In this document: positions 19,121 to 64,000 of the stretch, in pieces
Layout of the letters: the number at the start of each line of letters is the position of its first letter
Numbering within the stretch: position 1 is the stretch's first letter
Assembly (NCBI GenBank): GCA_026874595.1
Contig: CM049311.1
Location: 60,392,453-60,456,452, forward strand
DNA: 64,000 nucleotides
Reading direction: 5' to 3'
Source of the DNA: Sipunculus nudus
Taxonomy: Eukaryota > Annelida > Sipuncula > Golfingiida > Sipunculidae
The notes under the pieces: model-generated
Database searches by the model: none
Told to the model about the DNA's origin: nothing
Seen by the model: the letters and a program-made list of their open reading frames with translations, nothing else
Translations under genes and position numbers: made by a program

Positions 19121-19276
19121 TCACAGGGCTTGCGAAGTCCTTTTGGTCAACAACAGGATAGCACTGTCAGTGACTGCTAGATGGCTCTGTACGTATGGTC
19201 TCGGCAAGCTGGGGTCCATCACAACCTCCATGATGCAGGAAAGCTGGATGAGCTGTTCTTGACACTTCTTTATTCC
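19121..19276 (-). CDS. RMI1: RMI1 exon 13 (OB2 end and stop)
   Basis: After ttattcag the exon reads GIKKCQEQLIQLSCIMEVVM, DPSLPRPYVQSHL and ends at TGA 19123-19121. GLQKCQRDLIDLCCLM in human is the counterpart. It is 16.2 kb from exon 12. The last 14 codons (TDSAILLLTKRTSQAL) do not resemble vertebrate RMI1. Confidence 0.95.
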   Translation of the reverse strand, partial: GIKKCQEQLIQLSCIMEVVMDPSLPRPYVQSHLAVTDSAILLLTKRTSQAL

Positions 19277-22200
19277 CTGAATAAAAACAGAGTAATGAAA
19301 AAATTATCATCACATACAATCAACATATGGTATATACAACTTTATACAGATCAATGATAAAAAGAATGTTCCTATGCATAATCAAGACCATTATTATCAT
19401 CCTTATGAACAAACAAGACCACTGTCATCGTCTAAATCAATCATGAAGAAGATTATTATCATGCAGACAATTACCAGGCATTAGTATCAGACCATTACAG
19501 TATCCCCAGGCAGAGTTGGGATACTATGGTTTCACAACGGTCCAGCGGTCTTGTGAGCAGGATAACTAAACAAGTGACCCATGGGTCATGACGCTAAGCT
19601 GACTGGGAAGAGATTCGCAAAAGGAAATTTTATCATCTGAAGGGTAGTATATACCCATTCAACTAAAGCATCAAACAGATTAACCTAGAGGCCAAGATTG
19701 TGTCTGTATTTATATATCTCAAAAATATAGAGAAAAAATGCGTAAACTTAAAAAAAAAATACAGGTGGCTCCACCAGTCTGCAGAAACTAATAAAAACAC
19801 ATGGTCAATATCCATGCAAAGAATCATGGTGATCTCTGCATTATATTGTTTAGATACTTCAGCTTTTGTATCAAATTTTCCATTATTCTGAGGGATACTT
19901 CTGAGCCCTATAGCTTGAAGGATATGGGAAACAGAGACCCAATTTCAGGTTTCCACAGACACTTTTCATGGGCCTCCTTGCATTACAAGAATGAAGAATC
20001 TAGGTCCAGTTGTTACGATTTGTACCCTGTTGACAGATAACAACATCTTTAAAGGTCTAAAAAATAGAGAAAAAAAATTCGTAAAAATTTGAAAATAAAA
20101 TAGAGGTGGCACACCCAGTCTGCAGAAACTGATGAAACACCTCATGATCAGTATGTATGCCAAAAATCATGAACATCAGTGTTGTAGTTATTGAGATACT
20201 GCAGTTTTTGTATCAAATTTTTCATTATTCTGGGGGGTATTTTGGAGTCATACAGCTTAAAGGATATGGGTAACAGAGACCTTATTTCAAGTTTCCATGG
20301 ATACTTTTCATGGGTCTCCCTGTGTGTCAAGAACGAAGATTCTTGGTCCAGTTGTTATGATTTGGGCCCTGTTAACAGATGTTCATATCTTTAAAGGTCT
20401 CAAAAATTTAGAAAAAAATTTGTTAAAAAACATGAACAAATACAGATGGTGCTACCAATCTCCAGAAACTGATGAAACACTCAATGATCAATATCCATGC
20501 AGTTATGGTGATCTCTGCATTTGTTGTTCAGATACTTTAGCTTTTGTCTCAAATTTTCCATTATTCTAAGCTGTACTTTGGAGTGCCATAGCTCAAAGGA
20601 TATGGGTAACAGAGACTTAATTTCAGGTTTCCATGGAGACTTTTCATGGGTCTCCCTGTGTGTCAAGAATGAAGATTCTAGGTCCAGTCGTTATGATTTG
20701 TACCCTGTTGACAGATAACTACATCCTTAAAGGTATCAAAAATAGAGATAAAAAAGTACTTGACATTTTGAATAAGAAACAATTACACAAACATCACTGC
20801 TGAAATTCTGGCATGGGTGCACACAACACAAAAATGATTGTAGCTGGCACCACCAGTCTTGTATACAACAAAGCTATAAGAGATATATACATATGCCCAA
20901 TTTCAGACCGATATATCAAACCCCTCCTGAAAATAATCAGGGACACGCACCGTGCAAAAATTATTGTAAGTGGCATAACCAGTCTTGTATACGACAAAGC
21001 TATTGATATGTATATATATGCCTAATTTCTGGCTGATATATCAAATTCCTCTGTCAAAATAAGCAGGCACATACACTGTGCAAAAGTCATTGTAGGTGGC
21101 AACACCTGTCTTGTGAATGAGAAAGCCATCAAAGACACATAGACAGGTCAAAATATCAGGCCAATACATCAAACTTACCTTGAGTCTGATGCATGGGGCT
21201 GGCTAGGCTTAGGTGAGAAAGGCAGTTGCCCCGAGTGAACTGTGACAAATTTGCTGGCTCAGGCTACTGCACTAAGTGAACTCATGACCTGCACCTGGCT
21301 AGACTGAGTGAAATCTTGACCTGTTGCATAATCTGACACAGTTGGCAGTCTGCCAAAGCTATAAATAGATCAAGGCTGACCTCTAGCCTGATGCCAAGTC
21401 TGAAATAGTAGCCACACCATGGCATAGGCTCATGCAGGGGCCCTGCCCTGAGGGGCATGATACCCATGAGGTGATCACATGGTGCCCATGAGTTGTTCAC
21501 ATGTTGCCCATGAGGTGATCACATGTCACCCATGAGGTGATCACATGCCTTGTGCTTGGCTGCACTGATTGAACTCTTGACTTGTATCTGGCTACACTGA
21601 ATGAACTCTTGATCTGTTGCCAAATCTGAAACAGTTGGCAGTTTCTCAACCTATTTAAAGATACATACACAATCTCTGAGTGTTGGTGAATCTGTTTACA
21701 CATACTGAAAGACTTTGGCTAAAATGCTTTTTCTCAAGCTGACATATTCATAAACTTTTGATAAAAATATCTAGAATAATAAAAGATGCAGTTCTTTCAT
21801 TGTTAAAGGTCCAATAATTCTGCCACAAATCATTTAAGTAAACTTGAACAAAGGCCACCTATGAATAATTTTTGTGCAATGTTACAGAAGTTATAATTGA
21901 AACAATAATTTTGTAGAAGAACAGTTTTGCAGTCCTCAGTCTGAGATAGACATAATAATGGCCATAAGACCAACAAAAGCTTTTCTGATATGATTGAAAG
22001 AACCATTTCCTAGGATAATTCTTTTGAAACAAGGGACCCATGGGTCACGGCGCTCAGCTGAAGTTTGAAATTTTTGCAAATGCAAATATTCTATTGTAAT
22101 GTTTTCCATTTATATAAGCATATGAGAAGCTAAGAGGAAAGGGGCCCTCCTACTTGGTTATAGTAAAGTTCTAAATATATGATTGCAAACTAATATTCTG

Positions 22201-40200: not shown

Positions 40201-43200
40201 TTTCATAAACAACATTGTGTGAATGTAATTAATTTTTTAATATTTAAATGTATGGCCATATGAGCTAAAAATTAATCCCATGAAAATTTGCCCAATATTC
40301 CTTATTAACTAAGTTTAACAGTGTTTTACATATTAAGAGATATGAAATGTTACAATGTATTGATATCTTATTAAATCTGTCAATGAGCACTAACATTAGA
40401 TCTTAGTATTTTATCACATTAGAATATTAGGATTCAGATCCTAAAACATTTTGTTTAAAAAAAAATAAAAAAATGAATTGACCATTGAAATTACAAGATT
40501 CATCTTGTTTAATACTCCTGTGTATTGAAGGGGTGGGTGGGCAGAGGAGTCTCAGTGCCTACTGCTGTTGCTGACAAAAATGTGAAATAACTAGATATTT
40601 CATGGCACCGCAGGTGCCATAGTATCCCCAGACAATTAATCCCCCCCGCTTTAAGAATAGGCCCCCCATCTTCAGCAACAATTAATATTAGACCACACTC
40701 ATAGAAAAGGTCACTCTCATAGAAAAGGTCATGACCCCAATTTTAATATACATCATCCCCTAACCCATGTCTATGAATATGCGTAATATATAAGAAATCT
40801 GTCCATTAGTTTTTTATTTTTAATGCTCACAGTACTGTTAAGTGGCAATGATGGGGTATTAAACGGCACGAAAACAAGTAAAAGAATAGCAGGTGGTGCC
40901 ACCTGTTTCCGGTACATGACAATACTATCCAAGATCTTTGATCAAGTTGATTTTTGGACCAATCCTTGCATCCCTTATTGAGATATATTAAACGGCACGA
41001 AAACAAATAAAGAATAATAGGTGGCGCTACCAGTTTCCAGTACAAGACAACACTATTCAAGATCTTCGGTCAAGTTGATTTTTGGACCAATCAATGCATC
41101 CCTTATTGAGATATTAATGATTTTGTGTAATTTTCACCATATATGGCAATATTCAAGGTCAAGGCCACTCTCACAGAAAAGGTCATGAACCCAATTTAAA
41201 TAAACATCATCCAATAACCCATATCTATGTATATGCATAATATGAAAGAAATCTGTCTGATAGTTTTTGACTTATAATGCTCACAGTACTGTTAAGTGAC
41301 AATTATGGGGTTTTAAACGGCACAAAAACAAGTAAAAGAATAACAGGTGGCACCACCTGTTTCCGGTACATGACAATACTATCCAAGATCTTCGATCAAG
41401 TTGATTTTTGGACCAATCCTTGCATCCCTTATTGAGATATATTAAACGGCACGAAAACAAATAAAGAATAATAGGTGGTGCCACCAGTTTCTGGAACATG
41501 ACAACCCTATCCATGATCTTCCATCAACTTGATTTTGGGATCAATCCATGCAAGATTTCTTGAGATATTTAAGAATTTGTGTGATTTTCCCCAAAATTGG
41601 AAATATTCAAGGTCAATGACACTCTCCTATTCAAGGTCATGGCCTCCTTTTTTAAAAAGGCATCGTCCTTTCACCCATATCTATACATATACCAAGTTTG
41701 GTAAAGATCTGTGAAATATTTTTTGAGTTATCGCGCCAACAAGATTTATACGCGGCCGCGGGACCAGTATGAAAACAGTATCCCCCAACTTTGTCTGGGG
41801 ATACATTAAGATTCATCGTCTATTGTACAGGTCTGTCAATAGGATGGGGTGAAGGGATGGGGAGTTGAGAGAGAGAAAGGTTCTCTGTCATAGTTACTGC
41901 AGACAGCCTGACCAAGCTCAGCTAGACAGAGGGGTCTGGCCAGGAGTGAAGCATTTACATAACAACCCGGGGAACTGAGGGCTAGCTCTAGCACACTGCA
42001 TACCACTGTTCTTTGCTGGCTTGAAGTACATTATTTTACACGGTGCTTAAAAACTTGAATAAAATCTACAGTTTTTTATCAACTGGTTTCAAATTTCAGA
42101 TTATAAAAGATTAAATCCCAATGTATACAAGCTGTGAAAATTAAATCAACAGTGCTTACTGAAAGAAAATGTCCAATTGTCAAATATGGGCAAAATTTAA
42201 GGTACTTAATTTTAAATTATGATAATAACTTAAAAAATTTACAAAATTTTGATCTATTTTTGTTCACAATTAAAACTAAGTTCAATTTACTTATATGCTT
42301 GAAATATGCTCTTTAGCTTAAAAAATATTATGTTATGTGAGTCAATATATTTTCTGAGTTTTGACAAAGTGCATCATGTTTGGGCACATAACTTCAAGAA
42401 ATTACATAATACTGACCTTATTTCTGATTTGTACATCAGACATATACAGAGAAATGGTTATATTAAATATGATCAATATCAGATCCGTGGTTTTGATAAT
42501 TTGCAGTCTTGAAATGTTACAATGGGTTTTTAATGGAAAATTGAAGTTTTTCCTTAATATTTCAAAGCTATTAAATCTTAGTGACCAAATTTCTGGTAAG
42601 GTAGGAGATTTTGGGGACACCTAACTGAATTTTGAATTGGTAGGTCCAACAGTTTAAAAACATGCCCTATTAATGAATGGACTCCCAGACGGTCAGCAGA
42701 CAAAGGACCATCGCTATAGCTAAAAAAGAACTGAAAAAATAGTTAAAATAATAAATATAATTAATTTTCATCAGAGGAATAAGTAATGCTATCTTCAGAT
42801 TTGTAAACCTATACTTCTAATACTCTGCAGAGAATATCTCATGCATTAAATAATGCTGGTAAAGAAATCGCCAGACACATCATGAAACAGCCATCTGCTG
42901 TCAGAAAAGATGCACAACCTGTGTTTATGACTGGCAGCTATAAAAAATATCATGATAACCATTGTGGAGTCAGACTAACAATCAGCCATAACACCTGTCT
43001 CACCTCATCTCCTAAATCAACATCTAACGCTGAAGACCCATCATTAATCTTCGCTTGGAGGGACCACTTGCCAGTCTTGTAGTCAAGACGGCTCAGTAAT
43101 GTGGATATAAATGCCTACGAAAATATAAATGTATTATGTTTACAGTGAAACAAAATACTGCTACAATGGATTATGTTTAGATATAGACAAGTTTATGTAT

Positions 43201-52200: not shown

Positions 52201-55200
52201 AAGGGTTGTTGCGGCTCACAATGAGAGGGTCTGTACCCCCCCCCCCCCCCCCGGATCTGCTCCTGTGATCACAGTCTCTCAGGTTCCACTGTAGTATGAA
52301 GTAACTGAAACACATTATGTGACACTGCTTCCCATAAATTTGTAGTGTTGTCAAACAATTTAATCATTTTTGTGACATTTTCAATTACATTTCAATTACA
52401 TTAGGCTTCAACGCTTATGTTGCTCATGCATTATTAATCCTGAAAAGGGGGTAAACCTGTAATATATCAATTCTGTACACAATCTGCCACCATCTGTACT
52501 GCCCTCAGTTCAATATTAATTCTTTTCACTTATTTTAAAAGAAAGAATTACTTGAGGCAATAAATTTCAAGCAGAAGAACTTGCATTTGCATGTGCAAAT
52601 ATGTGAAGTGCCCCATACAGTGCAAATTAAGGGAAACTTTATATGCTTTAGCATGGCAAAGCTATGGCAAAAGTTTACTGTAACATGCAACTGAGAGTAG
52701 AATAAAGTCGAAGGTCACATTGAAAGTGTTTACTGACATCAGTCAATGTGACCTGATCTCAAGAAACGGTGTTTACTTGCAATAGTGTAGCACATATATA
52801 AGAACAACTTACCTGCATTCCTTAAATCACATGAGTGAGGCCTATGTCAATGCTTAAACACTGAATAATATCCAATCCAATTAAAACTACAGATGCTATT
52901 GTGCTAATGAGAAAATGATACCAAAAGTCTATTCTGACATCACAATGACAGCAAAATAACCTCTCCCCATCCCCCACTCCCCCCAAAAATTCAAATATGG
53001 CCCTCAATTTACACCCTTGTGCAGCTTTGCATGGCCACATGAATTAATTCAGAAAGAATTTCTGAATTAATGACATATCTGCAACCAGAGTGCATAATAC
53101 GCCTCTGGTATGTCATACAGCTGTCGCATGTCTTGTAACCCTTGGCTCAACAGACTTTACAACTAAATGCAGGTCAGACATAATATTGGATAATATATCT
53201 TTCAGTTTCATAAAAATCAATCAAATTCTTGGTTAAGTTATTTCAGTAATACTTAAAGTTTAAGGACATACAGATATTAATATATTAATACTACAATGAT
53301 ATCAGCCATGGATGTGTATGAACTATGTTTCCTACCTAGAGGTTTATTTATCTGTTGTTCCCTGCTATGTTTAGTACTGTCACAGCTGGATGGTACCTCT
53401 TGCTTGCTTCTGTGACTGCCATATTCAGTCCCTATACCTGTCTGGGCAGATTTCTGGCCAGCTATCATTCTGTGTGATAAGCTTGTTTGCTTTTCTGCCC
53501 TGCTTGTAACAGGGGTACCAAAAGTGGAGCTTTCCATCACTGCCCCGGAGTCCTGACTATTCACAAATATAACATCATCAACATCATCACCGAATCTAAT
53601 CATATCACTTGCACTCAACATGGCAGAATCTGATGTCCTTTTAATTTTCTTCTGAACTGGATGGAGCAACTCATTTTGAGTTTTTCCTAAAGTCAATCTA
53701 TTATTATTGGAAAAGTTCTCTTGAGTGCTTATATGAGGACTGTGAATGTGAGGACTGTGATTCCTCAGCTGCTGTTTTTGAATTTCATTGGTAATCATGT
53801 TTCCTCTCTGTGCCAATCCTGACTGTTTCCGATTACATCCTACTGCAGCTGATGGCTCCCCCTGCTGCCGGGCATCATCAAATAATGCCTCATAATCTAC
53901 ACCATCCTCCTCCCACTGAAACAGAAAGTCAAACAGCCCAATATAGTGGTTGCTGGATAGCATGCTGTGTAGAGAATCAGGTCAATATGAAGTGGACAGA
54001 CTATTTGTCACGCAGATGTTTTTGGCAGGTGTACAGAAGGCCTTAAAACAGATATCATTAAGGGTGTAAGCATAAATAATCCATTTAATCAATGGAATAT
54101 AATAAAATGCATGTTAATCCATCATTCTTGAATTTGTTTTCTTCTTATTTCAATTTTTTATTGGTTAAAGAAATTTGCACAGAAAAATATGAATCTTAAA
54201 AAAAAGGATGAGAGTTATGGGGTGTTAGCCATGGTTTGTTTAGTTTACTAACTGCTCAGTAGATCAGGCCAGCAACAGGATAGAGCCTTAAAAATAAGGA
54301 GTATTTACACATCTGGAAAACCAGAACAGCTTTTTCAGGTCGCTCTCCAAAAACATGAGCAAAGCTATCTATTGAAGAATTACAATGTTTTAATTTTTGA
54401 TACATTGATAAAAAAAAAATCACTGATAGACAGATCGATTTGAAGAACCCAAGACTATTTGCAGGCCTCATTATCATGTACAACAAACTGTTTCCATGGT
54501 GATGCTCACCTGCTGCTCCATGGCTTCTACTTCTGATGCATCCATATCATCCCACATGTCGTCAGTGACAGAGGAATATCCTGGCAAAAAATGTCTAAAT
54601 GTGTCCAAACAAGTATTAAACAAGTCAATTTGTACCAAAAACAACACTCACTCAATCATTACTTTGGGCACTAGTACTGAATCTGCTCTGGACAGTAATG
54701 CAAAGATGTGAACCATTTTAGTGCCCTGGTTGATGTATAAGACAAAGCTGACCTTTGCAAGCAGTAAGCAGGTGGAATGTGCAATAGTAATGTAACCTGC
54801 CCATTTAGCAATGTGGAGCAGAGGGTCGAGGAGTGAAAGGAAAAGTAAAGAGAGTAATTATGTTTAAACAAAATTATGAATCTTATGAAACATGCATCTT
54901 GTAATAAACTTTACCATGTTTGACTCTGTTTCTGATACTGAATGTTCTAATTTCCAAAAAAAAAATAACAAGAATGTCCTCTTTCTGCAGAAGGCTAGAA
55001 GACATGTGTATAAATGTTTGATAAGGTAATATACCAAGACTTGCTGACTGAGTGATCTGCTGAGCTTGAGTTCTGTCTTGCTGCCGTCCCTGAGTGCTCC
55101 ATGAAGGGTTAACCTGATTAACTTGTCTGTTCACATTAACTTGTCTCTTTGCTTCCCTAGATGCCCCTGTATTACTTTTCTTTGAGGGACCATTTTGAGA

Positions 55201-58200
55201 GAAGATTTTCCGCTGCTGAAGATTCTGTCCTTGAGTGTCCGCTAGTTCATGCTTAACATTTCTGAAAAGAGATCAGTTACAAAGATATAAAAAAGTTTTT
55301 AAATCAAAATCTTAATTAATTGTTTAAAAAGAATACTACAATGCTCTTGGTGAGCAAACTTGACAAAACATGTTGATACATGGCCAATGTGACCTTGTGT
55401 AAAATTAGCCCAGTGGAGCATCATACATATATACAGCAGAGATCATTTATTTGTTTATCAATCCCTGTATGATTAGCATGAGTGTCTGAAACTGTTAGAA
55501 GTGTCTGAAACTGTAATGGCTTGACCAGGTAACACATGAATGATGCAGGACTTTACATTGTTAAAATATCTGCAAGACACTCAGAGAGCATCTCTCCTAA
55601 AACACAAAAACTTTTTTCTTCTGCCAATATGATTTGCAGGCTAGACTTCTTTTGTGATCTATGGCAAAGGCTTCTATTATGATCTGTGGAACAGTTTTTT
55701 TTTGTCATTTGTGGGCCAGGCTTCTTTTGCAATCAATCTATGGCAAGGCTTCTTTTGGGATCTGTAGATCAGTCTACTTTTGTGATCTGTGGGCCAGGCT
55801 TCTTTAAAAGTTATCTAGTCACCACACAACCAGGATTCTTTTGTGATAGCCTCTTCTTTTGTGCATACCTTTATTTGTGCTTATCATCTTGCTAAAAAGG
55901 TAATCTGCTACCGCAGATAATCCGCACCCCCATTCAGAGCACGATTTTGGTGGGAAAACACATAACTCTATGTATTATACACACCCATTTTCTGGCAAAA
56001 ATCCTGGATGTTGTGATTAGTTTTCGCAATAGTCAGTGGAACATTTACTGGGTCTTTGGCAAGGAACTTTGACAGTTGGGCAGACACTCATAGTTGTGTC
56101 ATCACAATAGCAGTGATCACATAACTGTTCAAGCTGCTTGCCATGCTGTCAACAGCAGGTATTTAAATCTAAGGAAGCAATCAGGCCTTACATTGCACTA
56201 GCCTTAGGAATTGCAGCAGTGCCTGAGATTGATATTTGATCACTTACAGTCCTGCCTTGAGAAGATTTTCCTGTGTGTTCTGTTCCATCAAAGCATCAAC
56301 TTCCCCTCCCAACACTTTCAGATTCTTGGCTGTCAGCATGATGACTCCAAGTCTACACAGTACTGGTCCCTTCACTTGTACCTGCCAGTTAACATTATAT
56401 TTATAATTTTCATAACCGATTAAAAACAAGGGTGTGAAACATTAATAGGAAAACCTCCCTTTTACAGGCATGACTCATTAGAGTGATTAAGATGGGTCAG
56501 CTTTCTGCAATCTTTCTGGTACGACCATCTATCTATTGAATTTCAAGATTACACCAGTCTGTGACTGACAGGTAAAATGAAATATTATGCACTTACATTT
56601 ATTGTTATTTTGTCATTTTACATGTCTAGGATTGGATAAAATTTACTTTAGCAAAATTTCCCTAAATCCTTAATTATTTAGCACTTATAACAGATTCATG
56701 GTGAATGCTTCAAACAAAATATAACGAGCAAATTCGTGGAATTTATGTCTCTTCTCATGTTGTCTTTCATGCCTGCCTTATAAATGTGTTTTAGTTTTTA
56801 TGTTGGCCTGAAGATGTCTCCACATGTCCTACTGGCTCTGTTTTAGATTTCATGAAGATGTCTCCACATGTCATAATTTTGGCTGTAAAATAGGACCAAA
56901 AATTGATAATACTGTTTTGGAGCTGGTGAGAAAAAATTTTCAGACAGATAGTCCAAAACCAATCCCAACCAAGGTATGCATGAGAGCAATCAATGACTCA
57001 AATCTGAATGAAAACAGATAATATTTAGGAAAGTTATTGCACAGAAACAAAAACCTGACGAATGGACAGACAGAGGAATAAAGGGACAGACAGACAAACC
57101 CAAATCAATGTCCCTCATTCCTTCCAAGTAAGCTGGGGACAATAAAATAACTTCATATCACTTTGATCATTTGTCATGATCTTTGCAATATCTGAAACGG
57201 ACACATGATTTTCCAGAATGTCATGAGACTTGCCAACAAATCACAGCACCCCCTGAATGTCAAGGTTGTTAGGAAGTAACATACCTTGGCTCCAGGTAAG
57301 AGACTTGTGTTGAGGACCTGTAGTCTCTGGTACTCCATGCCCTGGACATCTTGGGTACCATCTGTCATCTTCAACATCAGCATGCGTGAAGCCTTGGTGT
57401 CCCACTATAACATAATATAATCAGGGTTAACACTTTGTTATGAGCTCCCACTCCCTAACCCAAACTGAGGGACAGACACACAAACTACAAGGAGGACGTA
57501 TTAACAAATCATGTAAAAAAGGCACAGCAACCATGACTTAGTACACAAGATTTAGTCACAAAAATTCATCTGATAAATCAAACATTAATCTGTCGTAAAA
57601 AATAAACCAGGTCAGATGTTAGACTGCCAGCATTACTTGTTACTTACAGTGTACTTGGTTGCCCATTTGGCTCTCAACTTTATTTGTGACTCACAGAAGG
57701 CTAGGTTGGTTGCATGACCATTACCTTTTCCTTGTAACATCCAGTTGGTTGGGTTGGCTGTGTAACAGTCACCTTTACTTACAGTGGGTTGTGTCCACTT
57801 TGTGACCATCAACTTTACTTACAATGGGTTGAGTAGGCTGTGTAACTGTCAACTTTATCTACAGAGGGTTGGGTCAGCTGTATAACTGTAACTTTACTTC
57901 CAATGGGTTGGGTCGGCTGTATGACTGTCACCTTTATTAAAGTGGGGTGGGTCGGCTGTGTGACTGTGACCTTTATTAAAGTGGGCTGGGTCGGCTGTGT
58001 GACTGTCACATTTACTTACAATGGACTGTGTCAGCTGTGTGACTGTCATCTTTACTTACAGTGGGCTGGGTCGGCTGTGTGACTGTCACCTTTACTTACA
58101 GTGGGCTGGGTCTGCTGTGTAACTGTCAGCTTTTCTTACAGAGGGCTGGGTCGGCTGTGTGCCTGTCAACTTTATCTACTGAGGGTTGGGTCAGCTGTAT

Positions 58201-61200
58201 AACTGTAACTTTACTTCCAATGGGTTGGGTCAGCTGTATGACTGTCACCTTTATTAAAGTGGGCTGGGTCGGCTGTGTGACTGTGACCTTTATTAAAGTG
58301 GGCTGGGTCGGCTGTGTGACTGTCACATTTACTTACAGTGGGCTGGGTCGGCTGTGTGACGGTCGCCTTTATTTTCAGTGGGCTGTGTCGGCTGTGCAAC
58401 TGTCACCATTTCTTACAGTGGGCTGGGTCGGCTGTATAACTGATGCCTTTTAATTACAGTGGGCTGGGTCGGCTGTGTGACTGTGACCTTTATTAAAGTG
58501 GGCTGGGTCGGCTGTGTGACTGTCACATTTACTTACAATGGACTGTGTCAGCTGTGTGACTGTCATCTTTACTTACAGTGGGCTGGGTCGGCTGTGTGAC
58601 TGTCACCTTTACTTACAGTGGGCTGGGTCTGCTGTGTAACTGTCAGCTTTTCTTACAGAGGGCTGGGTCGGCTGTGTGCCTGTCAACTTTATCTACTGAG
58701 GGTTGGGTCAGCTGTATAACTGTAACTTTACTTCCAATGGGTTGGGTCAGCTGTATGACTGTCACCTTTATTAAAGTGGGCTGGGTCGGCTGTGTGACTG
58801 TGACCTTTATTAAAGTGGGCTGGGTCGGCTGTGTGACTGTCACATTTACTTACAGTGGGCTGGGTCGGCTGTGTGACGGTCGCCTTTATTTTCAGTGGGC
58901 TGTGTCGGCTGTGCAACTGTCACTATTTCTTACAGTGGGCTGGGTCGGCTGTAAAACTGATGCCTTTACTTACAGTGGGCTGGGTCGGCTGTGTGACTGT
59001 GATCTTTATTACAGTGAGCTTGGTCGGCTGTGTGACTGTCATCTTTACTTACAGTGGGCTGGGTCAGCTGTGTAGCTGTCACCAGTACATTCTCATTCTC
59101 TGTTCCTGTCACCTTCTGTAGCTGTCCGTAGTATGGCTGGCTCACGTCCATAACTGAGTCCACCTGGAGGTACATTTAATAACTACAGTAGAGCGCCTTT
59201 TCCTGAAAGCGTCGGGGGACAAGCTTTTTGTTCGTAAAAACAAACATTCGGAAATGCGGACAAGGGTATAGGGGCAAGTTATAGCATGATAGTTAATGAT
59301 TAACTTAATGCCATTTTACCCGAGGAATATAGTGTTTCTTTTCAATATTCGTAATTGACGACCTGGGCGTATATAAAATATTCGATTATTGGGGAGCATA
59401 ATTGGCAAGATCAGTCTAACCTGGCTAAAGGATACGTGCGTGCTCTTTTTTCATCAAATTCACTGGAGGGAAAGGTCAAATGCATACATCGCCAAGCAAC
59501 ACGATGTTTCTTATCAATCTACATAATTGAAGACCGAGATATTTATAAGCTGCTCGAGCATAAGCGTTTAATGAATTATACCTAACCAATGCTGATGCGA
59601 GTAAACTGCTCAGTTATTTGGCATGACATCCTGTCCCAAGCCGATGAACTATGCATTTTTGAGTACAAACAAAATGTGGTTGATAACACACAAGTGCTCT
59701 AAGATAAACTGCTCAGTCGCTTGCTAGGGGTACAGGGGGCCGAGCGTAGCAGGGCTAGTGGTAGTTTTTACACACTTGCCCCGGCGACAACATCGGCCCA
59801 GAACTAATTAATTAGGGTCACCACTGGGCTTAACACATGACTGCAGGCCTTGTGACTCGTAATTATAATACTCATTTTAGGTTTTTACATTCTTGAAATA
59901 TATTTCGGAAACACGAATAAATTTTCGGTTCCCCATTTTAATTTTTGGAAAAATGAATTTTTGGAAATTTGGCATTCGGAAATGTGGCGCTCTACTGTAA
60001 TCACATTTATGTGTGGTGGTCATTTTAAATTATGAATATGTCAAATGCAACTAGGGACCTATGAGTCTAAATGCAGAGCTGAATATGTCTATATGAATAT
60101 TTCTATGAGATTTTTTAAAATACGGGTCATGTGACTTTGACCCTTGACCTTTTGACCAAAACATCAGAGAACTTCTATCCTTGAGCTTGCAGCCTCTCAA
60201 TTTTCATAAAAATCTTTTAAAAAAAGTGGGTCCAGTGATATTGACCTCTGACCAGGTAACCTCAAAATCTACAGATTTTTTTCCACTTTGGGCATGTAAG
60301 CCTTATGTGAAAGATGGAGGGTTGGGGATGAAAAGTTTGATTTACAATGCATCAAATATCTTTTAAAGATGTTGGTCCTGTGACGTTCACCTTTGACCTT
60401 GGGACCCTGAAATCAAAATGATTCTTACTTTAGAGGTTGGTTGTTAATAAATCAAATTTGAAGTCATTCAGTCCATCCAAACAAAAGTTATCATCCATAA
60501 ACTAATTTGCAGATCAGCCTTGTGACCATGACCTTTGATCTTTTGACCCAAAAGTCAAAAAGAATCTTCTGCTATTGGCAGATGAGAAATATCTGGAAGA
60601 CAGACGGTTTGTGATGAAATGCATTCACAATCTTTTCAAAGAAATGGGTCCTGTGACCTAGACCTTATGACCACAAAATTGATAGGTATCTTACTTTAGT
60701 GATGGGCCATATGTAAGTCAAGTCTGAAAGCAATATATCAAACCAAACTAGAGTTATCATCTGTAAACTAATAAATGACAGATGGCCCTTGTGACCTTTG
60801 ACCTGGTGACCCAAAATTCATTTTGGCTCTTCACCATAAGCAGGTCAGCTTTATGCGGAAAGATGGAAGGTTCAGGATGAAAAGTTTGGCTTAAAATACA
60901 TCCACAAACTTTTTAAATATGTTGGTCCTGTGACCTTGACATTTTACCTGATGACCCCAACATGATTAGGGTTCTTGCTTTCGCAATTGGCAATACATAA
61001 TTCAAGCCTGAAAACCATATGCCAAACCAAACTGGGGTTATCATCAAGAATTTTTTTTATGGACAGACAGATGGATGGACATCCACTTATGATCAATAAA
61101 CACATCAGGTTTCAAGACACTACATGACACAGCTGAGAAACTGACATGATTGCAGTCATTTTAGAGTCTAAAATTTTTTTTAAATCATAAAATTTGAAAA

Positions 61201-63194
61201 AAAATACAGGTGGTGCCACCAGTTTTCAGAAACTGACAAAACTAGTCATGGTCAACATTCAAGGTAATATTCATGACAATTAATGCATTCATTATTAAGA
61301 TAATGGAGATATTGTATCCAAATTTTTATTATTCTTGGAGGTACTTACTAGCCCAATAGCCTGGTTGGTTATATCTGACCTAATTTCAGGTTTCTAAGGA
61401 GATTTTTATTGACCTCCATAGATGTTAACTTAGAAGCTTCTATGGTCAGCTGTAATGATTTGTGCCATGCCCAGGATGGACAGATGCCTGGACAGATGAC
61501 CAACTAAGCGCCATACCTACTTTCAGTCAGCCTAGCTAAAAACTCTACAGGTAAAGTTGGGTTGATTGCATATTCTGCAGGTCTTCTTTGAAATCTTGTC
61601 TATTCAGCTCAAAGAATGGCTAGAAAATTGTTCTTCAGTAACGTGTTTTCTAACAAGTCAGACTCAAGTGATTATAACAATGTGACAGTAACACACTGAC
61701 ATTTTTCAAAGAGATTTTCTTACTGCATAGTTATTTTCATCCACATGAGACAGTGTGCTCCACCTCCAGGCTATAGACCCAATATGGAGAACAAGTCCCG
61801 GTCTTACCTGTAAACAGTAAGTGCCAGTCAGAGTGGTCTTTTCTTGCTCAGCCAGGCCGGCTGGTAGACATGATGAGCTAAGGTCTCGCAGATCTGCCAG
61901 CAACCATTGTTCATATACCAGTTCCTTGAGCTGGTCAGGGGACAGATGGCTGCCCTGGGTGATATGCACAATATGTTATGAATTCATGCCTTTGAAAATT
62001 ATTCAGATATTTACTTGAATTAATATTAAATGACACAAATTTTGATTATTCTAGCCGAAATGGAGCTAAGTCCCTTTGAGTTGAAAACATAAACTATTCT
62101 GGCATAAATGGTGTATGAAACAGAGATGCTTTCATTAAGATTAACAGTTGCTAAAAGCTGACCTGCTGAGGATGGGGGTTGGATACCTGTGGCTAGCTGC
62201 CAAGTATGCCCCGCTTGAAAGGTGTAAAATTAGCCTGAAAGGTCAACAAGGGTGACATACAGGTGACTGAAAAGGGGCTTCAGTATAGCCCAGGTGTAAG
62301 TAAGACAAGGTCTTATAAAAACCTAAATAAATGCTACAGTTTTTGGCCTATTCATTTCAAATTTTGGAATTTATAAGCTGAAATCCTTACATGTGCATGA
62401 TATGAAAATTAAATCAAGAGTGCTTACAGGAAAAAAACATACCATGGTCAAAGTTGGGAAAAATTTAAGGTACTGATTTTATATTTATGCTAATATCTTT
62501 ATAAAATTGCAATATTCAGATACAATTAGAAATTGATTAATTAAAGTTATATTCCTGAAAAAAAGCCTCTAGCTGCAACATTTCTCATGTTAAGTGAGTA
62601 AATATCTTTTCTGAATTTTTTTCAAAGTGCATAATGTTGGGCCCATAACTTCAAGAAATTACACAATACTGACCAAATTATAGGTATGTACATAGGAAAT
62701 ATTACAGTAATATTTACATAAAATATAATCAGATCAGTGGTTTTGATATTATGCAGTCTTGAAGTGTGAAAATAGCTTTTTAATGGAAAATTCAGGTTTT
62801 CCCTTAATATCTCAAAGGAAGAAAGTCATAGTGACCCAATATTTTGGTATGGTAGGACTTATGGGGACTGTATGCAAAATTTTGGATTCTTATATCCAAT
62901 TGTTTCAAAATGTGCGCTGTGAATGAACAAACCATGGACAAAGGACCGTGACTATAGCTCCGAAGACTTAAATGCAGCTGAGCTAAAAACTGAACCTAAG
63001 AGGGTTAGGTGTAGAATGTTTTGTTTTTGCTAGAATTCATCTTACACATTTTCAGGAATATATGATTGACAGTTTGATGTATTCACCTGGTTCTCTCCCT
63101 GTATCCAATCCAGACATGCCTCAAGCCAGTCCTCTGGGACCTGTATTCCATACTGCTGTACCAGCCACTGACGAAGTCTCTCAGCATGGTTCAT
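19121..63194 (-). CDS. RMI1: RMI1, RecQ-mediated genome instability protein 1 (complete, 13 exons)
   Basis: RMI1 is the OB-fold subunit of the BLM-TOP3A-RMI1-RMI2 complex, which dissolves double Holliday junctions in the nucleus. On the minus strand the join 63194-63087, 61954-61808, 59163-59053, 57404-57285, 56381-56248, 55261-55035, 54580-54510, 53915-53336, 45063-44981, 43114-43004, 39583-39542, 35564-35511, 19276-19121 keeps phase and totals 1944 nt, 647 aa plus TGA. Residues 1-85 are the N-terminal helical domain (LKELVYEQWLLADLRDL). About 86-207 are OB1 (VDVSQP-like start, SRMLMLKMTDG, KVLGGEVDALME). About 208-500 are disordered. About 501-647 are the C-terminal OB2, which in vertebrates binds RMI2 (TPPYTYLSLAM, KWSLQAKINDGSSALDVDLG, LIGFTAKE, KKCQEQLIQLSCIMEVVMDP). 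Similarity to human RMI1 is clear throughout both folded ends. Exon edges are predictions from AG/GT and phase. Confidence 0.97.
19567..20760 (-). repeat. Family D end plus ~335-bp tandem repeats
   Basis: It opens with the family D terminus acaagtgacccatgggtc at 19569. About three diverged units of roughly 335 bp follow, each with 'ggtggcaccaccagtctgca' variants, 'aggatatgggtaacagagac' and 'ggtccagttgttacgatttg'. The same units recur at about 31570-32250 and 37540-38450. Confidence 0.6.
20790..21180. repeat. Degenerate ~125-bp tandem repeat
   Basis: Three diverged units contain the motifs 'agtggcataaccagtcttgt', 'atacgacaaagctat' and 'gcaaaaattattgta'. No coding potential. Confidence 0.45.
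22399..23820 (+). repeat. Tandem duplication of a family D 5' module (~0.71 kb x 2)
   Basis: Two nearly identical head-to-tail copies (about 22399-23104 and 23105-23820) each begin with TTTTTAGC(T/A)CAGCTGACT, followed by the complementary AGTCATCTGAGCTATAG and a (CCGT)n tract. Both contain the same internal text (for example 'ttcctttgagaaattaagg' and 'accttaaattttgcccaact'). Confidence 0.8.
23821..26579 (+). repeat. Family D 3' module, copy 1 (carries a family A insertion)
   Basis: It begins ttttttctgtagtcacttgc and ends CAGCTGAGCACAGTGACCC then ATAGGTCCCTTGT. Without the 1580-bp family A element inside it, its length is about 1.18 kb, close to the tandem copy at 26580-27727. Confidence 0.8.
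24028..25607 (+). mobile_element. Family A element copy 1, Helitron/Helentron-like
   Basis: 5' end TTGTATCCGCCAAAAC, which pairs with GTTTTGCGGATAC just downstream to form a long hairpin. Then come (CCG)n-like sequence and a core of about 280-bp tandem repeats, each with GGTGGCGCCACC. The 3' end carries subterminal GGCGGATAC, then hairpin GTAGTCG-cttgt-CGACTAC, then CCGTATT and CTAG. The same sequence without the element is present at about 26774, and comparison shows insertion with no target-site duplication. No open frame for Rep/helicase, so non-autonomous. Confidence 0.85.
26580..27727 (+). repeat. Family D 3' module, copy 2 (empty site for family A)
   Basis: A tandem copy of 23821-26579 lacking the family A element: gtgttatgcagtaa is followed directly by ttgtttattgttttcac. 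It ends with the same CAGCTGAGC, GACCCATAGGTC, CCTTGT terminus. Confidence 0.85.
28375..29226 (-). mobile_element. Family D element, 3' end uncertain
   Basis: The 5' terminus is clear at 29193-29226 (minus strand TTTTTAGCTCAGCTGACT, then AGTCATCTGAGCTATAG), with (CCGT)n next to it. The other end fades out near a poly(G) tract at 28371-28382. Confidence 0.6.
33757..35466. repeat. 31-bp minisatellite (~55 units)
   Basis: Tandem units of about 31 bp with the core ccagaccaataaccctgacc followed by attagtatcat run for 1.7 kb. The last ~113 bp (including 'ttacctgttaattcttcag') is a near-exact direct duplication at about 35245-35355 and 35356-35466. The array stops 45 bp from the donor of RMI1 exon 12. 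Confidence 0.9.
35511..35564 (-). CDS. RMI1: RMI1 exon 12, 54-nt exon (OB2)
   Basis: Eighteen codons (EMRARAKTDMSARNRMTQ) lie between ctttattgcag and gtgaga, phase 0 at both ends. The position corresponds to human EMKQSKKDPLKYQKFLE. Less conserved than its neighbours but required by spacing. Confidence 0.85.
35716..38451 (-). mobile_element. Family D element carrying a family A insertion (RMI1 intron 11)
   Basis: It begins acaagtgacccatgggtcat and ends at 38451 in the minus-strand TTTTTAGCTCAGCTGACTG terminus with (CCGT)n beside it. The family A copy 2 lies inside. The remainder matches the repeat units at 19567-20760. Confidence 0.75.
35899..37537 (-). mobile_element. Family A element copy 2, 5'-truncated
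   Basis: The 3' end is intact on the minus strand: GGCGGATAC subterminal repeat, a hairpin with one mismatch, then CTAG at 35899-35902. The core has several about 280-bp units with GGTGGCGCCACC. The sequence breaks off near 37537 before the 5' hairpin, and about 90 bp of the host repeat next to the break is also missing relative to its relatives, so a deletion removed this end. Confidence 0.8.
38452..39541. other. RMI1 intron 11, unique part
   Basis: Non-repetitive A+T-rich sequence apart from a G-rich run near 38916-38940. No gene seen. Confidence 0.5.
39542..39583 (-). CDS. RMI1: RMI1 exon 11, 42-nt exon (OB2)
   Basis: The 14 codons FLTALIGFTAKECL lie between ttccttcctccag and gtgagt. They match human ILTSMIGFSVPEM in position and sequence and are needed to join exons 10 and 12. 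It is a short exon isolated by introns of about 3.4 and 4.0 kb. Confidence 0.9.
39873..42727 (-). mobile_element. Family D relative carrying a family B insertion (RMI1 intron 10)
   Basis: It starts acaaggcacccatgggtcat, with a degraded CAGCTGA, and ends near 42727 in a decayed 'ctatagctaaaaaa' terminus. The element at 40591-41805 is nested in it. Confidence 0.55.
40591..41805 (-). mobile_element. Family B element, Helitron/Helentron-like
   Basis: On the minus strand the 5' end is TGTATCCCCAGAC (41805-41793). GGGGATAC at its inner side (41785-41778) makes an 8-bp perfect stem. Near the 3' end is the exact inverted repeat GTCTGGGGATAC (40633-40622), then hairpin GGCACC-tgc-GGTGCC (40618-40604), then atgaaatat and CTAG (40594-40591). 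The core has about two or three diverged units with GGTGGYRCCACC-type motifs. No coding frame. Confidence 0.85.
43004..43114 (-). CDS. RMI1: RMI1 exon 10 (OB2)
   Basis: Thirty-seven codons (AFISTLLSRLDYKTGKWSLQ then AKINDGSSALDVDLGDE) lie between tacgaaaa-side acceptor cgtag and gtgaga. W(S/K)(L/I)xAK(I/V)xDG(S/T)xxLDVD is the OB2 core. Phase 0 at both ends. Confidence 0.96.
43199..43276. repeat. (TA)n microsatellite
   Basis: A nearly pure TA dinucleotide run of about 75 bp in RMI1 intron 9, 85 bp upstream of exon 10 on the transcribed strand. Confidence 0.95.
44262..44493. mobile_element. 232-bp MITE with 20-bp perfect TIRs
   Basis: AAGGTATGGTTCTCAGGCAC at 44262-44281 is the exact reverse complement of 44474-44493. 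The interior is A+T-rich and non-coding. A diverged relative lies at 5330-5672. No unambiguous target duplication could be read. It is in RMI1 intron 9. Confidence 0.85.
44627..44928 (-). mobile_element. Family A copy 4, 302-bp core-less derivative
   Basis: It keeps both ends of family A (GTATC...GCAGATAC hairpin at the 5' end and the 3' hairpin region ending ATAG instead of CTAG), but the 280-bp repeat core is gone. It lies 53 bp downstream of the RMI1 exon 9 donor. Confidence 0.75.
44981..45063 (-). CDS. RMI1: RMI1 exon 9 (OB2 start)
   Basis: After gattacag the exon reads IDTPPYTYLSLAMRDAPSDG then PCVVRVK|gtgagt. PPYTYLSLAM corresponds to human PPFVYLSVLM, and VVRVK leads into AFISTL exactly as VKVKAFI does in human. 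Two leading bases complete the split codon from exon 8. Confidence 0.93.
45256..47844 (-). mobile_element. Family D full-length element, copy 1 (2.59 kb)
   Basis: It runs from acaagggacctatgggtcac to the terminus ctcagctgagctaaaa. It holds the GACC(C/T)ATGGGTC palindrome at one end and an AGCTCAG...CTGAGCT stem-loop at the other, with (CCGT)n beside it. It is non-coding. It contains the empty target site for family A at 45638/45639 and a 22-bp perfect palindrome at 45655-45676. Confidence 0.85.
47865..52202 (-). mobile_element. Family D full-length element, copy 2, with nested family A
   Basis: A tandem, same-orientation copy of 45256-47844 separated by 20 bp. Its length without the nested element is about 2587 bp against 2589 bp for copy 1, and both ends agree. 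The family A copy 3 is inserted at the position homologous to 45638/45639. Confidence 0.87.
48243..49993 (-). mobile_element. Family A element copy 3, full length (1751 bp)
   Basis: On the minus strand it runs from TTGTATCCGCCAAAACGAAG, a hairpin with GTTTTGCGGATAC (49962-49991 region), through a (CCG)n tract and about five 280-bp units to GGCGGATAC (48283-48275), hairpin GTAGTCG-cttgt-CGACTAC and CTAG (48246-48243). Flanks 'gattattaaaa' and 'taatatcaacgaatatattc' join directly in the paralogous site, showing insertion without target duplication. Confidence 0.88.
52235..52252. repeat. Poly(C) tract
   Basis: A run of C directly beside the family D end. Similar C or G runs occur at 23975-23997, 26727-26741, 31716-31731, 38924-38938, 63836-63848 and 63880-63893. 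Confidence 0.9.
53043..53071. repeat. Perfect 13-bp hairpin in RMI1 intron 8
   Basis: ATTAATTCAGAAA, loop gaa, TTTCTGAATTAAT. It lies about 265 nt downstream of the exon 8 donor in sequence without other repeats. Function unknown. Confidence 0.8.
53336..53915 (-). CDS. RMI1: RMI1 exon 8 (long disordered exon)
   Basis: The exon is 580 nt after ttctgtttcag. It starts WEEDGVDYEALFDDARQQGE and passes through Ser/Gln/Asn-rich sequence with a KKIKRTSD basic patch, which could be a nuclear localisation signal. It ends KPL plus one base before gtagga. The frame is open well past the donor, to 53277. Confidence 0.88.
54510..54580 (-). CDS. RMI1: RMI1 exon 7 (acidic linker)
   Basis: This 71-nt exon after tttttgccag reads GYSSVTDDMWDDMDASEVEA then MEQQ|gtgagc. 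The acidic DDMWDDMD type segment resembles the SDEELLASLDENDE region that follows OB1 in vertebrate RMI1. Phase fits both sides. Confidence 0.85.
55035..55261 (-). CDS. RMI1: RMI1 exon 6 (disordered linker)
   Basis: The acceptor is ctcttttcag and the donor CTTG|gtatat. The translation is polar linker (NVKHELADTQGQNLQQRKIF and later QVNQVNPSWSTQGRQQDRTQ). Identification rests on phase agreement with exons 5 and 7 and on open frame, not on strong homology. Confidence 0.85.
56248..56381 (-). CDS. RMI1: RMI1 exon 5 (OB1 end)
   Basis: After aactggcag it reads VQVKGPVLCRLGVIMLTAKN then LKVLGGEVDALMEQNTQENL, LKAG and a split Leu before gtaagt. (V/L)KVLGGEVDALxE is a strongly conserved RMI1 segment at the end of OB1. 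Confidence 0.96.
57285..57404 (-). CDS. RMI1: RMI1 exon 4 (OB1)
   Basis: Forty codons (WDTKASRMLMLKMTDGTQDV then QGMEYQRLQVLNTSLLPGAK) after gttatag, ending AAG|gtatgt. SRMLML(K/Q)(M/L)TDG and QGMEYQ are conserved OB1 strands. Phase 0 at both ends. Confidence 0.97.
57646..59082 (-). repeat. 40-bp minisatellite made of RMI1 exon 3 end plus 5' splice site
   Basis: About 35 units of 38-41 bp fill most of RMI1 intron 3. On the minus strand the unit is exon-like CACAGCCGACCCAGCCCACT followed by intron-like GTAAGTAAAGG and TGACAGT. The exon-most unit is the real end of exon 3 (ACACAGCTGACCCAGCCCACT with GTAAGT at 59052). Many other units keep a GTAAG donor. The unit length is not a multiple of three. 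A higher-order duplication with a period of 517 bp makes 58061-58577 and 58578-59094 almost identical. Confidence 0.93.
59053..59163 (-). CDS. RMI1: RMI1 exon 3 (OB1, minisatellite seed)
   Basis: Thirty-seven codons (VDSVMDVSQPYYGQLQKVTG then TENENVLVTATQLTQPT) lie between tgtacctccag and GTAAGTAAAG. By alignment with human RMI1 (DVSQPVYSQIQKIRG) this covers the start of OB1 and most of its insertion loop. The last 28 nt plus the donor are the unit of the adjacent 40-bp minisatellite, and a TIR element ends 22 bp from the acceptor side. Confidence 0.95.
59186..59997. mobile_element. 812-bp pogo/Tigger-like non-autonomous element
   Basis: CAGTAGAGCGCC at 59186 is mirrored by GGCGCTCTACTG ending at 59997. 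TA dinucleotides flank both ends (59184-59185, 59998-59999), as for Tc1/mariner/pogo insertions. The inner ends share 'attcggaaat'-type sequence. No transposase frame. Its left edge is 22 bp from RMI1 exon 3. Confidence 0.82.
60050..61560 (-). repeat. Degenerate repeat block in RMI1 intron 2
   Basis: Diverged units of about 180 bp carry 'ggtcctgtgaccttgacctt', 'aactagagttatcatc' and 'gaaaagtttg'. The same text occurs near 32800-33600 in the opposite sense. The block ends near 61525 in a decayed family D terminus (ctttcagtcagcctagctaa). Non-coding. Confidence 0.55.
61808..61954 (-). CDS. RMI1: RMI1 exon 2
   Basis: Forty-nine codons after atatcacccag: GSHLSPDQLKELVYEQWLLA, DLRDL, and on to GTYCLQ|gtaaga. 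YEQWLLxDLRDL is the best RMI1 signature in the window. Phase 0 at both ends. Confidence 0.97.
62160..62990 (-). mobile_element. Family D relative in RMI1 intron 1
   Basis: It shares long stretches with 46380-47100 and 50670-51420 (for example 'aaattaaatcaagagtgctt', 'gatcagtggttttgatatta') and ends at 'gactatagctccgaagactt' then 'aaatgcagctgagctaaaaa', the family D 5' terminus on the minus strand. Confidence 0.65.
63087..63194 (-). CDS. RMI1: RMI1 exon 1 (start)
   Basis: ATG at 63194-63192 opens MNHAERLRQWLVQQYGIQVP then EDWLEACLDWIQGENQ, ending CAG|gtgaat. It matches the RMI1 N-terminus, where WLEAC(I/L)xWIQEEN is conserved. The sequence just upstream of the ATG (atatccag) could be an acceptor, so a 5' UTR intron is possible. 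Confidence 0.95.
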
Positions 63195-64000
63195 CCTGGA
63201 TATCTCTGTACGGACAAGCCCCTAAGAATCTTATATAATCAAGTGTACATACTGCAGGCCTCTCCTGAGCTCTTTGTTAACACATCAGAGATCTGAAAGA
63301 ACAATCTGAAATTTACCATTTACCACTGAATGTGTATTTTAACTGAACTAGTGACCCAGGGGTCTTTATGCTTAACAGACTAGGAAGACATTAACAAAAG
63401 GAATTTTATCATCTGAATTCCAAATTTTATATGTGGCATCCCTATTCAACTAAAGCATAGCTCAGAGGATATATATTGGTAACACTCCATGATGAATATG
63501 CAAGCAAAGAATCATGGTGATCAATGCATTAGTTGTTCAGATACTGGACCTTTTGTATTAATTTTTTAATTATTCCTGGTGGTATTTCTGAGCCCAATTG
63601 CTCATAGGATATTGGTAACAGAGACCTAATTTCAGGTTTCCAAGGAGATTTTAATGGAACGTCAAGTATGAAGATTCCAGGTCCAGCGTTACAATTTGTG
63701 CCTGGTTAACAGATGGACAGATGGATGAACACCAGACAGAGTGATTGCTAAAGCTAAAAAATGGTTGTTTTTGTTTGAAAGACAACAAATCCTGAATGAC
63801 TCTTCATAGAGTTATAAAGAGCCACATAAAAAGTGTGGGGGGGGGGGAACCAGGAAGAAGCCCCCTTCCTGCAACCTTCCCCCCCCCCCCCCCTCCATGT
63901 GACCAGTAATGCACACTAGAGCAACCAGTGCTGGTACATCATGCAGGTTAAGAACACAACCCTGGAGGTCAGAACCAGGTAGCATGAAGCAGATTATATA
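63195..64000. other. Upstream of the RMI1 start: 5' UTR/promoter region and repeat
   Basis: The first ~100 bp beyond the ATG may be 5' UTR. From about 63350 the sequence is a diverged relative of the 335-bp repeat ('atggtgatcaatgcattagt', 'ggtaacagagacctaatttc'), then poly(G) and poly(C) runs near 63836-63893. No TATA box or CpG-rich promoter could be singled out. Confidence 0.45.

Follow-up and report, generated by a model that had tools for sequence, protein, structure and literature searches.

A minisatellite across the exon 3 border of RMI1 in Sipunculus nudus multiplies a 5' splice site

In a 64,000-nucleotide stretch of the genome of the sipunculan annelid Sipunculus nudus (GenBank assembly GCA_026874595.1, contig CM049311.1, positions 60,392,453 to 60,456,452; hereafter the window), intron 3 of a minus-strand RMI1 gene is largely filled by a minisatellite whose 40-bp unit comprises the end of exon 3 together with its 5' splice site. 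The first unit lies across the exon-intron border, and many of the intronic units that follow carry an intact copy of the donor. We consider it likely that the minisatellite is neutral, that it originated from the end of exon 3, and that the native donor is normally used while the copies are an occasional source of faulty transcripts. A preliminary description of the window, made from the letters alone, had given the coordinates 57646-59163, which take in exon 3 plus the array, had recognized the gene as RMI1, and had proposed a border-spanning unit with about 35 copies in intron 3; all of this was borne out.

Tandem Repeats Finder (TRF) reported 33.8 copies of a period of 40 at 57742-59083, with a score of 1632, and a wrap-around alignment to the consensus resolved it into 36 units of about 40 bp from 59083 to 57640, one on the border and 35 intronic. 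The make-up of the unit from exon and intron sequence agrees with the earlier account, but its division into 28 and 12 nt does not: the match extends to GGTGACAG, the codons V-T-A, so that the unit consists of 31 nt of exon, coding for VTATQLTQPT, and 9 nt of intron (GGTGACAG...CCCACT/GTAAGTAAA). The mean identity among units is 81%. The exon copy shares 84% identity on average with the other units and 92.5% with its closest one, while units 35 and 36, at the far end, diverge most (64–67% mean identity). A 13-unit block is present twice, as units 4–16 and 17–29; the two versions differ at 5 of 520 columns, not counting a base inserted in unit 16. Elsewhere in the window the best ungapped match of the unit is 22/40. 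A search of the species' own genome (1,426,538,692 bases) with 57742-59163 as the query, which skips simple repeats and very common words, returned this locus alone, and within that scope an origin from a dispersed satellite was rejected. Open reading frames (ORFs) of up to 171 residues run across the plus strand of the array and look like by-products of the 40-nt period. Six of the 36 units (58843-57999, minus strand) contain an inverted repeat, GTGAC-A-GTCAC, which is absent from the exon copy; outside the array, this 11-mer did not turn up anywhere in the window.

The assignment of the gene rests on a query of 207 residues, covering the 206 full codons of exons 1–5 and a last residue translated across the exon 5 donor. 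With phmmer it matched human RMI1 at E = 5.7e-61 (chains 3nbi and 4cgy, E about 6e-61), whereas TDRD3 chains were far weaker (E = 4.9e-10 and worse). Pfam recognizes in it RMI1_N_N and RMI1_N_C, domains that carry a long insertion loop in the oligonucleotide/oligosaccharide-binding (OB) fold, and two matches to RMI1_C lie downstream of exons 1–5, on the same strand and inside the window. Exons 1–4 have lengths divisible by three and are mutually in frame, and introns 1–4 have GT-AG ends. The end of exon 3 is predicted at 59053 by homology to human RMI1, the alignment spanning both exon junctions with a one-residue gap. The insertion loop of human RMI1 comprises Val95–Ser132 (PMC5296760); in the alignment it covers exon 3 and the beginning of exon 4. 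According to a review, RMI1 seemingly donates a decatenation loop in trans, and a mutant with a scrambled loop fails to stimulate dissolution (PMC4109787). By the alignment, the end of S. nudus exon 3 sits in the loop whose human counterpart contacts TOP3A. A second locus with RMI1_N_C matches, G000:C10:46611669-46612433, is presumably TDRD3, which has a related OB fold. A degenerate 25-bp repeat at 55646-55805, in RMI1 intron 5, shows ACAGAT-like, acceptor-like motifs on the minus strand; it lies about 380 bp ahead of the apparent exon 6 and hence does not span a boundary.

The native exon 3 donor, ACT/GTAAGT, scores 6.57 with the consensus weights that were used for all donor scores. GTAAGT is intact in 12 of the 35 intronic units and GTAAG in 16, in agreement with the many intact donors noted before; nine units repeat the native 9-mer exactly, and three more have ATT/GTAAGT. 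With the native site included, the sense strand of the array holds 17 GTAAG and 13 GTAAGT, the latter compared with 12 over the remaining 62.5 kb or so of that strand. Splice-site scoring over all units, which the preliminary description had proposed, yielded 12 sites (native included) that score at least as high as the native donor in 1,449 nt of array. Outside the array there are 1.48 such sites per kb and strand (185 in 125,102 bases), an enrichment with a binomial P of 2.7e-6. The first downstream copy, at +40, has a decayed donor; it reads GTAATAAA and falls below the score threshold for alternatives. Since the upstream exon context was copied along with the donor, local sequence gives the splicing machinery hardly any cue as to the right donor.

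As alternatives we examined the 27 downstream sites whose score is at most 3 bits below that of the native donor, 25 of them in the array and two beyond it. Every one leads to a premature stop. For 26 the stop lies inside the extension, after 28 codons; the remaining one, at +79, shifts the frame and meets its stop in exon 5. The expectation that a distal donor brings a stop therefore held, but not the universal frame shift that had been given as its cause: several downstream donors sit at multiples of three, in frame, and the general reason is the stop after 28 codons. Among the native and the 27 downstream sites, the native donor alone keeps the RMI1 frame open, and it makes the shortest exon 3 (111 nt). 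Transcripts from the downstream donors would probably undergo nonsense-mediated decay (NMD). The preliminary description had also expected mis-splicing to hit a functional loop. The exon end does map inside the insertion loop, but the loop is no special target, since the products would be truncated and would lack the remainder of the OB fold and everything after it, which matters more.

Comparison with human RMI1 makes it most likely that the exon end is the original and that the intronic copies arose later. The exon copy VTATQLTQPT stands where the human protein has VTAEAQVTPKP, and exon 4 continues with W..K.SRML as in human; the human residues are fitted equally well by 208 of the 59,827 stop-free 30-nt windows outside 53000-63300. 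This fit argues for real coding sequence, with the exon as the source of the unit. We propose that the array began with a tandem duplication of a 40-bp segment across the end of exon 3 (31 nt coding, and 9 nt intronic that carry the 5' splice site), that the units then spread through intron 3 by slippage or unequal exchange, and that the 13-unit block was duplicated recently within the array. The copies would have drifted neutrally, keeping the donor in some units and losing it in others, several of these to AATAAA. In the normal mRNA the first, native donor would be used; exon definition should favour the shortest exon 3, which is the one ending at that donor. Later donors, +79 foremost, would occasionally be used, and the resulting mRNAs, out of frame or interrupted by a stop, would go to NMD. 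Exon 3 contains GGTGACAG twice on the minus strand (59113 and 59083), 30 nt apart and in one frame, the second being the start of the array unit; this doubling was perhaps the seed of the first slippage.

Several observations weigh against a neutral array with dominant use of the native donor. By the consensus weights this donor ties for the lowest place among the five RMI1 donors scored (its U1 pairing energy, −7.0, is mid-ranked), and its nine exact 9-mer twins all lie downstream; work on duplicated donors often finds the intron-proximal copy preferred. Nor is the native donor predicted to be more open, its local pairing being 0.007 against 0.004–0.125 for 13 copies. Predicted local accessibility thus fails to separate it from the copies, and the idea that RNA structure hides the decoys was rejected. 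Within exon 3, GT sites at −30, −60 and −93 score 5.04, 6.33 and 5.90 and keep the frame; if used, they would remove loop residues. Finally, the least variable positions of the unit are its last three intron positions, AAA (0.033), for which drift alone is insufficient, although chance may do.

The donor copies could instead be kept as a rheostat that sends an adjustable fraction of RMI1 transcripts into NMD, the length of the array determining RMI1 dose. Such a role would be served by the 12 GTAAGT decoys and by the premature stop that follows each of the 27 alternatives, and it has a partial precedent in human ABCA7, where the length of a variable number tandem repeat (VNTR) is inversely correlated with expression and retention of a single unit shifts the frame (PMC5954066). 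We nevertheless consider it improbable, since the donor columns show no extra conservation and the very first downstream copy has decayed. In a column-variability test on 20 intronic units, a set that leaves out the 13 units of the second block copy and the gapped units 34 and 35, the donor columns varied about as much as the others (mean 0.150 for GTAAGT vs 0.127 for exon-derived columns; P = 0.30 that six columns drawn at random are as variable). Parsimony changes per column on a tree of all 36 units were 2.00 for the donor vs 2.32. The donor 6-mer was intact in 40% of the 20 units, the seventh lowest value among 40 six-base windows (median 50%). Intactness of GTAAGT did not depend on position either (2/10 of the first intronic units vs 10/25 of the others, P = 0.43, block copies counted twice). 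With neither a clear excess nor a clear deficit at the donor columns, selection on the decoy donors was rejected; the column pattern is roughly that expected of a neutral array, in a test that is weak because independent units are few. The 13-unit block, copied with so few differences, is an indirect sign, from one assembly, that array length may be polymorphic. If it does vary, RMI1 dose could differ among individuals.

The direction of birth could also be reversed, an older intronic minisatellite having captured the splice site or gene conversion having overwritten the last residues of the exon. The border unit is indeed 37/40 identical to the array consensus, and QLTQPT differs from human AQVTPKP at most places. 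An exon derived from the array is still unlikely in our view, because the exon copy beats 99.65% of stop-free windows in its fit to the human residues and fits them better than the array consensus read in the same frame (13 vs 10). A partial overwriting of the last, variable residues of exon 3 by the array may have occurred.

A second motif is multiplied in the array. Sense AATAAA occurs in 11 units (57640-59043, minus strand), at 7.6 per kb vs 1.09 per kb elsewhere on that strand; among 1,000 first-order Markov sequences the mean was 0.3 and the maximum 3. The hexamers come from several unit types, namely GTAATAAA, TTAATAAA, GAAAATAAA and unit 35. Intron 3 might then be pictured as an RNA code of two signs, GTAAGT in 13 of 36 units (native included) and AATAAA in 11, whose ratio and order could set the loss of RMI1 transcripts by poison splicing or early 3' ends, while array conversion can rewrite the exon end and so edit the TOP3A-contacting loop; we regard this as very unlikely. 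Even less credit is due to a plain switch to intronic polyadenylation, in which decayed donors became AATAAA signals restrained by U1 at intact copies. The enrichment and the variety of unit types speak for it, but GTAAGTAAA minus one base gives AATAAA, which therefore arises easily without selection. The 10–40 nt past the array hexamers are, moreover, GU-poor (0.29 vs 0.49 at 68 other hexamers of the strand), which makes strong 3'-end formation unlikely. Enriched as they are, the hexamers were for this reason rejected as polyadenylation signals.

Were exon 3 to end farther upstream, for example 30 nt earlier (CTG/GTGACA at 59082), the whole array would be intronic and no coding sequence would be multiplied. 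The frame-keeping GT sites inside exon 3 would allow this, but all three score below the native donor, and the residues then lost, VTATQLTQPT, align with human RMI1 as VTA..Q.T; such an upstream end is highly doubtful. An assembly artefact, with a wrong number of units or a spurious 13-unit block duplication, is hardly credible: assembly errors do typically arise in near-identical blocks such as these, of about 517 bp, but the two differ at 5/520 columns, and the boundary-spanning unit is independent of copy number.

Table 1. Features of the RMI1 gene and its intron 3 array in the window
Feature	Position	Strand	Basis or detail
RMI1 exon 1, coding part from chosen Met	63087..63194	minus	in-frame gene model, alignment to human RMI1
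RMI1 exon 2	61808..61954	minus	in-frame gene model, alignment to human RMI1
RMI1 exon 3, 111 nt, phase 0/0, VDSVMDVSQPYYGQLQKVTGTENENVLVTATQLTQPT	59053..59163	minus	in frame between exons 2 and 4
Array unit 1, spanning predicted exon 3 end and native 5' splice site ACT/GTAAGTAAA, first intron base 59052	59044..59083	minus	37/40 to unit consensus
RMI1 intron 3, 1,648 nt	57405..59052	minus	GT-AG ends; array = 86% of intron
35 intronic ~40-bp units: GTAAGT in 12, GTAAG only in a further 4, sense AATAAA in 11	57640..59043	minus	TRF, unit alignment, motif counts
Duplicated 13-unit block, 58964-58448 and 58447-57933	57933..58964	minus	5 differences/520 consensus columns
RMI1 exon 4 (WDTKASRMLML...)	57285..57404	minus	in-frame gene model, alignment to human RMI1
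RMI1 exon 5	56248..56381	minus	in-frame gene model, alignment to human RMI1
RMI1_C domain match, domain positions 28-67 of 143	42998..43117	minus	38.4 bits, cut-off 27
RMI1_C domain match (domain end), positions 96-142 of 143	19139..19279	minus	27.5 bits, cut-off 27

The window contains further repeats. A 30-bp repeat with 13 copies (9511-9897, plus strand) overlaps at its end the start of a long Pro/Gln-rich ORF (9878-11881), and a 280-bp unit containing GGTGGCGCCACC forms three arrays, at 24256-25522, 36023-37410 and 48379-49772.

Ordinary neutral minisatellites evolve by slippage or unequal exchange, undergo block duplication and have divergent end units. The RMI1 array resembles them in its block duplication, its divergent ends and its probable growth by slippage or unequal exchange, and differs from them in straddling an exon border and hence carrying splice sites. 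The closest parallel is the VNTR in intron 18 of human ABCA7, whose 25-bp unit starts with the donor GT of exon 18. Use of the donor one unit on retains 25 bp and yields an out-of-frame transcript, and the repeat is polymorphic (12 to about 427 copies) and alternatively spliced (PMC5954066). As in ABCA7, the RMI1 unit includes the native exon donor; use of the downstream donors examined in RMI1 would alter the frame or add a stop. Unlike the ABCA7 repeat, which the part of that report drawn on here presents as intronic with the donor included, naming no coding stretch, the RMI1 array derives 31 of its 40 bp from an exon, and it is known from the sequence of one assembly. In human IFI6 (6-16/G1P3), two downstream repeat units serve as donors (PMC4526556). 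The RMI1 array likewise has repeat units at an exon end; in IFI6 these act as alternative donors, whereas in RMI1 they are candidates. The IFI6 minisatellite, treated by Turri et al. in 1995, reportedly has a 12-bp, frame-keeping unit that gives rise to protein isoforms; the RMI1 unit, in contrast, has 40 bp, and its 27 examined downstream choices end in a stop. DDX3Y MSY2 and LHX3, considered as further parallels, proved to be another matter.

The preliminary description knew of no such structure in RMI1, and none was reported for this gene in the literature titles and abstract openings searched, a scope outside which lie full texts holding both 'RMI1' and 'minisatellite'. The structure as such is not new, as the accounts of ABCA7 and IFI6 cited above indicate. 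The RMI1 array shares two features with these repeats: its unit includes the predicted native 5' splice site, and several units keep a usable-looking donor. With nine exact copies of the native 9-mer following an exon within a single intron of a core DNA-repair gene, it amounts to a natural experiment on how a 5' splice site is chosen. It also adds one more gene to those with the ABCA7-type architecture, a hint that arrays of this sort may turn up repeatedly. Given the ABCA7 and IFI6 precedents, a boundary repeat that multiplies a donor is a known kind of element, of which the RMI1 array is a new example.

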